From: Sphingomonadales bacterium | GTDB lineage: Bacteria > Pseudomonadota > Alphaproteobacteria > Sphingomonadales > Sphingomonadaceae | Length of the DNA stretch: 36,753 bases | Direction of reading: 5' to 3' | Assembly (NCBI GenBank): GCA_018971065.1 | Contig: JAGWVC010000032.1 | Span: 1-36,753, forward strand | Notes under the pieces: model-generated | What the model was told of the DNA's origin: nothing | Databases searched by the model: none | The model's input: the letters and a program-made list of their open reading frames with translations, nothing else | Made by a program: the position numbers and the translations under genes | Shown: one piece after another, positions 18,285-23,927 of the stretch | Numbering within the stretch: the first letter of the stretch is position 1 | How the letters are laid out: every line of letters begins with the position of its first letter

Positions 18285-18674
18285 TCAGTGTGCAGCGTCT
18301 GGAACAATCCACGCGACCGGAATGTCTGGGAAGTGCCCCCAGTGGGTCCATGCGGCTTTGGCTTGATTACTGGGCCGCGATGCAAGTCCCCATCGCGGTG
18401 GATCGGGCCACCCGAACCAAACGTTGTCGATGAGAAGCAGATCCTCAGCATCGTGTGTTGCGTGGAACGCAACGTCAACAGAGGCTAACCACTCCTTGGT
18501 GCAGCCACATACACCGCGTTCTGGAAAGGCGTTCCAAGGGACCGGCTGCCAGCAAATTGGCTTGTGCGCGCGCTGGTGAAAACCCAACTCTTGCTTGTTA
18601 GCGGTTTGGGTATCCATGGGCCAAGGGGACGGCTCCCATTCCGGGTTAATTTCGTCGCGCCGATAGATGCTCAT
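18285..18674 (-). CDS. Orphan hypothetical protein with foreign codon use
   Basis: 129 residues from ATG 18674, no clear Shine-Dalgarno. Not recognised. Tryptophan-rich (11 Trp), with WEPSPWPMD, ICWQPVPWNAFPE, CGCTKEW, NVWFGWPDPPRWG and WTHWGHFPDIPVAW; no signal peptide or membrane span. Third codon positions are mixed (many A/T), unlike the near-uniform G/C of neighbours, which argues both for real coding and for recent transfer. It sits between two inverted palindromic elements (18094-18163 and 18987-19056). Function unknown. Confidence 0.6.
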   Translation of the reverse strand: MSIYRRDEINPEWEPSPWPMDTQTANKQELGFHQRAHKPICWQPVPWNAFPERGVCGCTKEWLASVDVAFHATHDAEDLLLIDNVWFGWPDPPRWGLASRPSNQAKAAWTHWGHFPDIPVAWIVPDAAH

Positions 18675-18783: not shown

Positions 18784-18876
18784 TGGGGCGGGCAGTATGG
18801 GGACAGGGGAACGGATTAGCGCGGGAGCAAGAGGGATCGCTTCTCGATCGCGGGTGCGAGGCGCGTCCTTGAGCAT

Positions 18877-18970
18877 CTCACGCGAAGCCGCGAAGGCGCC
18901 AAGGATGGGGTGCAGGCCCCTTGCAAGGCACTTTCAAGAAATCTTTTGCGGCTTCGCGGCTTTGCGTGAG
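18877..18970. repeat. 94-bp hyphenated palindrome
   Basis: Left arm 18877-18904 and right arm 18943-18970 are inverted copies; the outer 19 bases (from CTCACGCGAAGCC) differ at one position. The arms share the TCACGC...AG.CGCGAAG pattern with the inverted repeats framing the GxxExxY gene at 21803-22359, so it may be a gene-less relative of that element (inference). Confidence 0.7.
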
Positions 18971-18986
18971 AATTGAACCTGCTCGA

Positions 18987-20547: not shown

Positions 20548-21720
20548 TCAGCTCAGGCGGTCGCGGAAGGTCTCCCAATCGAATCGCTTCACGCATTCCA
20601 GCGAATCGGTATCTGAATCCCACAGCCAGATCGACGGCAGCGGCACGCCGTTGAAGGTGGTGGTCTTGACCATCGAATAGTGCGCCTGGTCGAGGAAGGC
20701 GAAGCGGGTTCCGGGTTCGGGGGCTTCAGCGAGGACGTAATCGCCGATGACGTCGCCGGCGAGGCACGAGGGGCCGCCCAGGCGGACGGCTTCGCCTTCG
20801 TCCAGTTCGCCCAGCATGGCGGGGCGATAGGGCGCCTCGATGACGTCGGGCATGTGGCAGGTGGCCGAGATGTCGGTGATGGCGACGGGCATTCCGTTCC
20901 AGCCGATGTCGAGCACTTCGCCGACGAGGATGCCGGCGTCGAGCGCGACGGCTTCGCCCGGTTCGATGTAGATCTGGGCGCCGGTGTCCTCGGCCATGTC
21001 CTTGAGGAACTGGACGAGGTCATCACGCTGGTAATCGGCGCGGGTGACATGATGGCCGCCGCCGAGGTTGAGCCACTTGAACTTGCCGAAATGGGGTTCG
21101 AGGTGATCGAACAGGACATCCCAGGTGCGCTGGAGCGGCTCGAAGTCCTGTTCGCACAAGGTATGGAAGTGCAGGCCGTCGATCAGCTCGACATGGTCGG
21201 CGGTGAGCTGGTCGATCGGGAAGCCCAGGCGCGAGTGCGGGGCGCAGGGGTCATAGCGCGGCACTTCGCCTTCGGCGTGCATGGGGTTCACGCGCAGGCC
21301 GACGTCGAACACCGCGCCGCTGTGGCGGGCGGCGGCGATATAGGGGGCGAAGCGTTCGATCTGGCGGGGGGAGTTGAAGATGACATGGTCCGAGAGGTGA
21401 AGAATCTCGGCGATGTCGGCTTCCTTGTAGGCGGCGCAGTACGTGGTGATCTCGCCGTCGTAATGCTCGCTGGCGAGGCGCGCTTCCCACAGGCCCGAGG
21501 TGCAGACGCCGTCGAGGTATTCGCCGACGATGGGCGCGGTGGACCACATGCTGAACGCCTTCAGCGCGGCGAGGACCTTGCAGCCGGAGCGTTCGGCGAT
21601 GTCCTGCAGGACGCGCAGGTTGGCGCGCAACTTGGCGGCATCGACGACGAAGGCGGGGGAATCGACGCGATGGATGTCGAAGTGGGCGAAGGCGCCCGGG
21701 TCGCCGGCTCTGGTTTCCAT
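20548..21720 (-). CDS. nspC: Carboxynorspermidine/carboxyspermidine decarboxylase
   Basis: 390 residues from ATG 21720, with AAGGAT 5-6 bases upstream. Fold-III PLP decarboxylase: DSPAFVVDAAKLRANL, PLP lysine Lys54 in LAALKAF, GLHFHTLCE, LNLGGGHHVTRADY, IEPGEA, and the diagnostic LGGPSCLAGDVIGDY and AHYSMVKTTTFNGVPLPS segments. Removes CO2 from carboxyspermidine to give spermidine (or carboxynorspermidine to norspermidine). Its partner dehydrogenase is at 22713; the two are separated by DUF486 and the GxxExxY insertion. Confidence 0.95.
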   Translation of the reverse strand: METRAGDPGAFAHFDIHRVDSPAFVVDAAKLRANLRVLQDIAERSGCKVLAALKAFSMWSTAPIVGEYLDGVCTSGLWEARLASEHYDGEITTYCAAYKEADIAEILHLSDHVIFNSPRQIERFAPYIAAARHSGAVFDVGLRVNPMHAEGEVPRYDPCAPHSRLGFPIDQLTADHVELIDGLHFHTLCEQDFEPLQRTWDVLFDHLEPHFGKFKWLNLGGGHHVTRADYQRDDLVQFLKDMAEDTGAQIYIEPGEAVALDAGILVGEVLDIGWNGMPVAITDISATCHMPDVIEAPYRPAMLGELDEGEAVRLGGPSCLAGDVIGDYVLAEAPEPGTRFAFLDQAHYSMVKTTTFNGVPLPSIWLWDSDTDSLECVKRFDWETFRDRLS

Positions 21721-21779: not shown

Positions 21780-21802
21780 GCGCTGAAGGCGGAAGGAAAG
21801 GG
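21780..21802 (+). repeat. Truncated left half of the palindromic element
   Basis: This 23-base stretch, containing GAAGGCGGAAGGAAAGGG, matches the left flank of copy 1 at 18094-18117 almost base for base. The match stops exactly where the left inverted-repeat arm of the GxxExxY module begins (21803). No hairpin or right flank follows. Confidence 0.6.
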
Positions 21803-22359
21803 TTTCGCGCAGAGACGCGAAGAGCGCAGAGCCGGCAGCGCTTCACTCGGGGCGGTAGTCGTTCACCACGCGACGGATGCCTGCCGCCATCGTTGTGCTC
21901 GAAAAGTTCAGTAGCAATCCAACGGGGAGTTTCATCAGTCGCAAGTACGTCAGCAATTGCCGTGAATGCAGCTTCCCCATTTGCTCCACTGCCTTGATTT
22001 CGACGATCAGCAAATCCTCGACCAGAAGATCGATCCTGAACGCAACTTCGAATTGCTGACCGTCGAAGCGGAGTGGCACGGGTACCTGCCGCCCGACGCG
22101 CAATCCTCGCGACTGCAGCCGGCCGGCGAGGATGGCTTCGTAAACGGACTCGAACAATCCCGGGCCAAGCTCGCGATGAATGCCTACTGCTTCATCGACC
22201 ACAATGGCGCTGATCTCGTCGACGTTCACAGCGCCGTGTCCTTGCAATGCAGAAGATGGCAATAAGCGAAGTTTACATTAAAAAATCAACTTCATAAATA
22301 AATTCCGTGGTGGAGGCCCAGAACTGCGGGCTTTGCGCTCTTCGCGCCTCTGCGTGAAC
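21803..22359. mobile_element. Inverted-repeat-framed GxxExxY module
   Basis: A left arm at 21803-21837 and right arm at 22325-22359 are inverted copies, 30 of 35 bases identical by hand alignment, sharing cores such as CGCGAAGAGCGCA. They enclose only the GxxExxY gene and its AT-rich upstream region (22263-22320). The left arm ends 5 bases from the gene stop; the right arm ends 6 bases before the DUF486 stop. No target-site duplication was found and no transposase is encoded, so mobility is inference. Confidence 0.55.
21843..22229 (-). CDS. GxxExxY family protein (PD-(D/E)XK nuclease-like)
   Basis: 128 residues from GTG 22229, which has AAGGA 9 bases upstream; a TTG at 22262 would add 11 residues. 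The naming motif is GLFESVY within LGPGLFESVYE (G-x-x-E-x-x-Y). Further on, VAFRIDLLVEDLLIVEIKA gives an Asp...Glu-x-Lys pattern like PD-(D/E)XK nucleases, and the end TYLRLMKLPVGLLLNF is typical of the family. Biological role of the family is not established. Upstream AT-rich DNA and flanking inverted repeats set it apart from the polyamine genes around it. Confidence 0.88.
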   Translation of the reverse strand: MNVDEISAIVVDEAVGIHRELGPGLFESVYEAILAGRLQSRGLRVGRQVPVPLRFDGQQFEVAFRIDLLVEDLLIVEIKAVEQMGKLHSRQLLTYLRLMKLPVGLLLNFSSTTMAAGIRRVVNDYRPE

Positions 22360-22365
22360 CTCTGT

Positions 22366-22712
22366 CTATACCGGCGACTTGAATACCAGCGCGGCACCCG
22401 CCACGATCAGGGCGAAGCCGGCGAGTTGGGGGAGGCCGGGTTTCTGGCCGAACAGGGCCCAGGCAACCACGACGAAGGCGGCGAGGGAGAACACTTCCTG
22501 CATCGTCTTGAGCTGGGCCAGCGAATAGCTGCGGGCGCCGATGCGGTTGGCGGGGACGGCGAGGCAGTATTCGAGGAGCGCGATGCCCCAGCTTGCCAGC
22601 ACGGCCAGCCACAGCGCCTTGTTCGGCGCCTTGAGGTGGCCGTACCACGCAAGGTTCATGAACAGGTTGGAGCCTGCCAGCAGCAGTGGCGGCAGGGCGG
22701 GGCTCCAGTTCA

Positions 22713-22713
<1 letters not shown>
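22366..22713 (-). CDS. DMT-superfamily small membrane protein (DUF486)
   Basis: 115 residues with four predicted membrane spans. LFMNLAWYGHLKAPN, LASWGIALLEYCLAVPANRIG and SLAQLKTMQEV are strong DUF486 (COG3169) features, a family distantly related to small multidrug transporters. ATG 22713 overlaps the stop of the carboxyspermidine dehydrogenase by one base (TGATG), so the two are translationally coupled. A link to polyamine movement is possible but unproven. Confidence 0.85.

Positions 22714-23927
<1,214 letters not shown>

Follow-up and report, generated by a model that had tools for sequence, protein, structure and literature searches.

In REPtrons, a single resident nuclease gene, that of the RAYT transposase (TnpA-REP), lies between inverted repeats of the REP/REPIN kind, gene-less inverted pairs forming hairpins are dispersed, no target duplication is found and the gene mostly stays put (in part after PMC3733652). 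A GTAG tag at the repeat end is named as a REPtron feature in the same account, which also describes TIRtrons (TIRYTs), tyrosine transposase genes between long terminal inverted repeats; in certain species these repeats make up a repeat family as well (PMC3733652). The MITEs of DDE insertion sequences are short elements bounded by terminal inverted repeats and carry no gene of their own. REPIN-like dispersal is known only with HUH tyrosine transposases.

The locus described here lies in a window (the whole stretch of DNA that was analysed, 36,753 nucleotides of a Sphingomonadales bacterium contig) and has the organisation of REPIN-RAYT pairs, but not their enzyme or their GTAG tag. A PD-(D/E)XK enzyme stands in place of the HUH/Y1 tyrosine transposase, the arms are built from repeated CGCRRAG-like heptads, and column counts of 120 aligned arms did not reveal the tag. 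With TIRtrons the locus shares a gene between terminal inverted repeats that also belong to a repeat family, but again the gene encodes a PD-(D/E)XK nuclease and not a tyrosine transposase. The features of the window are as follows.

18876 to 18971, no strand: gene-less paired-arm element of similar grammar, with CTCACGCRAAGCCGCGAAG arms
20548 to 21720, minus strand: nspC carboxynorspermidine decarboxylase-like gene (374 bits, under the cut-off of 409)
21796 to 21838, plus strand: arm downstream of the GxxExxY gene, reading inward on the plus strand, core TTCGCGCAGAGACGCGAAGAGCGCAGAG
21843 to 22262, minus strand: GxxExxY / PDDEXK_3 nuclease gene, matched by the PF13366 and TIGR04256 profiles
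22324 to 22366, minus strand: arm upstream of the GxxExxY gene, reading inward on the minus strand and abutting the DUF486 stop codon
22366 to 22752, minus strand: DUF486/DMT_6 gene (context)
22713 to 23927: carboxynorspermidine synthase-like, saccharopine-dehydrogenase-like gene, scoring under the model's curated cut-off

The first-pass annotation had placed a single GxxExxY gene between 35-bp inverted repeats, in a module separating a dehydrogenase and DUF486 from nspC and encoding no transposase, and each of these points held. Its 30 of 35 matching bases were confirmed by a hand count on the alignment, in which the full arms are 43 bp long, identical at 36 positions and 485 bp apart; the GxxExxY open-reading frame is the sole gene between them, its neighbours are annotated as claimed, and profile searches match the enclosed protein to PF13366 only and to no transposase family. 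The protein is 128–139 aa long; its start codon is probably the GTG near 22229, because most homologues are ~128 aa long. The gene-less element, 2.8 kb from the gene unit, is a 96-base near-palindrome with arms 75% complementary and 3 mismatches to the arm pattern, and it folds as one long hairpin (DNA fold z −6.9; 0 of 200 shuffles equally stable). Rfam gave no match at gathering scores between positions 18500 and 22800.

Taken alone, the window arm pair is indecisive (score 51; 300 resampled sequences, self-hairpins included, averaged 28 and reached 62); what decides is its recurrence at other loci. A genome scan of 457 GxxExxY relatives left 80 loci, L001–L060 being titled sphingomonads or merely Proteobacteria and L061–L080 mostly other phyla, and a similarity-blind set came from an even draw of 199 genomes of the family, in which 54 of 64 PF13366 rows were examined (the remainder being two from G001, four from G026, one from G019, two G217 fragments and a weak G042 match). 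The search for arms around other GxxExxY genes that the first-pass annotation had proposed found them at 49 of the 54 similarity-blind genes, against 1 of 232 control open-reading frames from L001–L060, and the arm pair is therefore real; a terminator or chance hairpin is ruled out by the same controls and the recurrence across loci. Among the 59 testable best-match loci (L050 of L001–L060 has a short flank and was excluded from the arm tests), 56 had, with 200-bp flanks, an inverted pair scoring above all 540 shuffles, the criterion behind the counts of 49 and 1 as well, with the consensus TTCRCGCAGAGRCGCRGAG followed by more GCAGAG/CGCAGAG heptads, and 10 of the 20 loci in L061–L080 exceeded their own null maximum with 350-bp flanks.

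Arms also co-vary, with each other and with the protein. At the 49 loci above the arm-pair threshold, the left arm's own partner was its best match in 32, at a mean rank of 0.8 against 24 by chance, a rank test somewhat biased toward the own pair because the selection of arms itself went by the highest left-right similarity; own pairs scored 51 on average, others 21 and the largest shuffle 26. Arm similarity tracked protein similarity (Mantel r 0.57, the largest of 2000 permutations reaching 0.21). One genome, G129, holds eight GxxExxY paralogues, each with a matched arm pair and non-CGCAGAG types among them; L303 and L306 are alike in both protein and arms, whilst the remaining six differ.

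The window protein matches PF13366 PDDEXK_3 (E 5.4e-37, 127.2 bits against a curated cut-off of 22) and TIGR04256 GxxExxY (E 8.3e-37, 126.1 bits against 35), a very large family with 5157 matches among 5201 candidates scored in one search, and a sequence search of the PDB with it returned no match at E up to 1. It is predicted to be a single-domain PD-(D/E)XK nuclease with a Cas4/lambda-exonuclease-like fold. The active site is conserved, with D78 and E88 kept in all 115 aligned proteins, K90 in 114, and each of these as well as Q102 and Y106 in 114–115; we take the D..ExK and QxxxY residues to be the motif of Cas4/lambda exonuclease/RecB-type nucleases. Unlike Cas4, the window protein has no cysteine with which to form the iron-sulphur cluster of that family, none of the annotated neighbours is a cas gene, and the nuclease is paired with repeats. 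Judged by dN/dS, the gene is under purifying selection (0.05–0.3 in the 15 closest pairs and a median of 0.19 over 63 pairs, with synonymous sites near saturation in many of them).

That the arms form a dispersed repeat family beyond the gene unit is borne out by gene-less inward pairs in many genomes. Matches to the arm pattern occurred in 26 of 27 gene-holding genomes, with as many as 71 in the forward and 69 in the reverse direction, against 0–2 for the reversed-pattern control, a few of the 27 being no higher than that control; 15 of the 20 genomes behind L061–L080 also had matches, some of them dozens (control 0–1). A script paired 70 gene-less elements of 48–263 bp from 80 regions in nine genomes, two of which (G116 and G092) do not carry the gene. 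Elements are mostly ~170 bp long in G004 and 64 bp in G003, and reach 210 bp in G137, where they contain a nested second hairpin. Nested second hairpins in L201–L204 and L208 (G137) and in L219 (G056) have arms like TCACACGAAGCCACGAAG, which come near the type found with other GxxExxY lineages such as L285 and L293.

Within each genome the two most alike elements share 73–97% identity, with flank agreement of 0.40–0.73, mostly ~0.5, and such unlike flanks do not fit the action of a homing endonuclease. G092 is the exception, its alike elements having alike flanks; the arm pairs at L214–L218 of this gene-less genome lie within a larger repeat with conserved flanks. No target duplication was detected in the 70 elements at lengths of 2, 3, 4, 5, 6 or 8 bp and offsets of 0–11 from TTC (lowest p 0.07), in a set where a nested arm was taken as the partner by mistake in at least two (L203 and L208); the elements, short and gene-less like MITEs, thus differ from them in having no fixed-length duplication. 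Arms within one element matched each other beyond permuted arms in G004, G005, G001 and G137 (p 0.002–0.018) and no better than permuted in G003 (p 0.54). The resident arms, those flanking the gene, were the best match for 4 of 7 elements in G001, 6 of 9 in G003 (two further ties), 13 of 21 in G004 (two ties) and 2 of 3 in G006, and for only 2 of 15 in G005 (one tie).

Among 100 of the 111 places listed for G129, 34 of 35 close pairs faced inward and two wider inward pairs were present, one enclosing a GxxExxY gene and the other a 311-bp gap with no PF13366 match, the searched CGC-type pattern having missed the arms of the other seven paralogues. Eight genomes without the gene had, by eye, no inward pair wider than ~280 bp among the matches listed. 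Orientation was read for arms with a near partner in seven of these eight (all except G173): similar arms lie mostly outward, minus then plus and 27–76 bp start to start, in G028, G045 and G095, unlike the inward arrangement of gene-bearing genomes, whilst G213, G210, G199 and G223 have inward pairs although the gene is absent.

Comparisons of single sites between relatives showed presence and absence of elements. A 675-bp intergenic stretch of G004 contains a tandem duplication with two elements, where eight relatives covering both sides (six aligned) have 0–134 bp; at a second site, elements with unlike loops are present in G004, G277, G001 and G012 and none in G274, G259 and G292. The elements that follow a shared terminator differ between L018 and L025, and L024 has ~5 bp at the L018 element site where L018 has 192, between flanks 89% and 83% identical. 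These comparisons carry no direction, and homology breaks inexactly relative to the arms.

Gene and dispersed arms occur together. The GxxExxY gene is present in 43 of the 199 family genomes, as a single match in 31, and one genome has as many as 8 copies. Arm-rich genomes, by which we mean those with at least five arm hits, make up 26 of the 43 gene-bearing and 16 of the 156 gene-less genomes (Fisher 5e-11, kinship ignored, the genomes being related and hence not independent in presence and abundance counts); conversely the gene is held by 26 of 42 arm-rich and 17 of 157 other genomes, and the median number of arm hits is 10 with the gene and 0 without it. Fewer than 3 arm hits were found in 11 of the 43. 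In a second order, that of the Thiodictyon genome G307 (119 genomes), the gene is present in 19 of 23 arm-rich and 41 of 96 other genomes (p 9e-4, kinship ignored), a link that is not significant with a single arm hit as the criterion (p 0.08); one gene-bearing genome of this order, G339, has 251 and 246 arm hits.

Empty sites in related genomes, a check that the first-pass annotation had called for, are common. Among the best 30 nspC loci of the 137 genomes with a match, the unit adjoins nspC in 4 and is absent in 26; the DUF486–nspC gap, 649 bp in the window, is 6–70 bp in six relatives without the unit, and a further four have only 2 bp between the synthase match and nspC. At 34 of the 60 best-match loci no more than 300 bp separates the gene from nspC or the synthase, and these loci, with the window and five further loci, form 40 rows which all fall in one clade of 46 (SH-aLRT 98; 115 rows and 127 columns, 54 of the 112 inner branches open, one gene present at least twice as L021 and L270), the other 6 members lying elsewhere. 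One clade, together with absence from many relatives, suggests that the gene settled at the nspC site once or a few times, has mostly been inherited there and has occasionally moved. L057, the nearest locus by context, has the same gene order and is 89% identical in nspC, 92% in the synthase, 73% in DUF486 and 68% in GxxExxY; the nuclease, although under purifying selection, therefore diverges more quickly than the polyamine genes. The proposal of a minimal mobile or selfish unit thus holds for the repeats, which disperse, but not for the gene-bearing unit, which rarely moves, unlike an active jumping cassette. Fixation of the module at this locus, named in advance as the observation that would count against mobility, is nearly complete within the clade, although a few members lie elsewhere and many relatives have no unit.

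We think it fairly probable that the unit is the gene-bearing resident of a REPIN-like repeat population, whose nuclease acts in trans on the gene-less pairs. We infer that the GxxExxY protein would recognise, bind and cut its own arms, with which it co-varies, and that the pairs are mobilised in this way: single-stranded hairpins or cruciforms would most likely expose the paired arms, the nuclease would nick or trim at the hairpin base, and the released or copied hairpin would be joined elsewhere by host repair or replication, with no target duplication. Acting in trans, the nuclease would keep or spread gene-less hairpin pairs in intergenic DNA, whilst the gene-bearing copy would seldom move and pass mainly by vertical inheritance, here between DUF486 and nspC. 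Counting against this reading are the arm-rich genomes that have no gene, the gene-bearing genomes with few arm hits, the poor fit of most G005 elements to the resident arms, the loss of significance in the second order at a single arm hit, and the arm-richness of every genome holding both the gene and a Y1 transposase.

Alternatively, GxxExxY could serve the cell in house-keeping or defence, as a nuclease acting on hairpins or arms (to trim cruciforms, or in RNA/DNA quality control), with its flanking arms as an operator or recognition site and the dispersed copies as tolerated replication errors. Its predicted fold, purifying selection and long residence at one site would all suit such a role, but the gene is patchy across the family, the unit is missing from most of the nspC loci compared, PADLOC gave weak matches only (best E 0.005), and dispersed copies with unlike flanks require some copying activity; we consider this explanation unlikely. 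Still less probable is that the unit is an autonomous cut-and-paste transposon moving gene and arms together, as the first-pass annotation had it. The unit is delimited by arms, the gene is found at many loci, including those of the six nspC-clade members elsewhere, and one genome holds several copies; yet most gene-bearing genomes have a single match, most clade members sit at the same place, the G129 paralogues are mostly diverged rather than recent copies, and gene-less relatives have no target duplication.

A RAYT (HUH tyrosine) or other insertion-sequence transposase might instead spread the arm pairs, GxxExxY being a passenger in one of them, a reading that we regard as improbable, less so than the autonomous transposon and more so than the house-keeping role. 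A transposase survey of the 199 genomes, which covered the Y1 family, found Y1 transposases in 32: the arm-rich genomes had them in 12 of 42 cases, the others in 20 of 157 (p 0.02). Of the gene-bearing genomes, each of the 9 with Y1 was arm-rich, compared with 17 of the 34 without (p 0.007). However, 30 of the 42 arm-rich genomes have no Y1 match, the gene-arm link persists among genomes without Y1 (17 of 30 against 17 of 137, p 8e-7), and Y1 and arm abundance are unlinked where the gene is absent (3 of 16 against 20 of 140). Repeats of another kind and of their own (GGTGACA or GGGGACA type, no null) flank six RAYT loci in arm-rich genomes, target duplication is absent from the 70 elements, and a passenger is not expected to co-vary with its arms. 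Whole GxxExxY units or their remnants have been multiplied at L314–L325 (G367, 12 loci) and L328–L333 (G385, 6), the G367 copies inside outer ends GGGKCTATRCCATAT; of the 4 copies for which both ends were read, 3 have exact 8-bp duplications. Foreign ends with such duplications make the machinery of another element likely, and 4 of 5 translated GxxExxY copies in G367 are broken. Both sets look like capture by an insertion-sequence MITE, whose ends may resemble those of ISL3 type. The multiple copies could at first be taken for self-mobility, but the foreign ends and duplications of the G367 copies speak against it, and we counted them as hitch-hiking. The outer ends of the G385 copies are of GGCTCTTC type.

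A nuclease gene between inverted repeats, with gene-less pairs of the same kind scattered through the genomes of many bacteria that carry it, points to a nuclease in partnership with a population of tiny selfish DNA hairpins, an association not described so far. More tentatively, and with slightly less than even confidence, GxxExxY nucleases across phyla may be the trans-acting enzymes of their own hairpin-element families, a new class of mobile DNA in which each lineage co-evolves with its own arm code made of heptads, and insertion requires no DDE, HUH, serine or tyrosine chemistry and leaves no target duplication. If the nuclease were shown to drive movement, the class would be new, and finding the same arrangement of gene and repeats with a second, unrelated type of enzyme would mean that this lifestyle has more than one origin. 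It would further point to a role for the very large, uncharacterised GxxExxY family and account for a common kind of intergenic hairpin in bacteria. With its eight matched gene-arm sets, G129 offers a direct test of a nuclease-arm code. The parts of the open-access literature that we drew on name GxxExxY in passing and gave no description of a GxxExxY-repeat system, six 15-mers from the arms did not occur in that literature, and of 31 IMG/VR stretches that matched a pattern none encodes a GxxExxY relative.

Two further observations concern the repeats. The RAYT-like genes of the sphingomonad family at L308–L313 lie between inverted repeats of their own, in which GGTGACAG, GGTGACAC or GGGGACA-like motifs occur. 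By eye, the predicted GxxExxY N-termini of P0004, P0020, P0044 and P0097 resemble translated arm sequence (FRAETQR...), as does the C-terminus of P0097 (...SAPFASFAFPARN).
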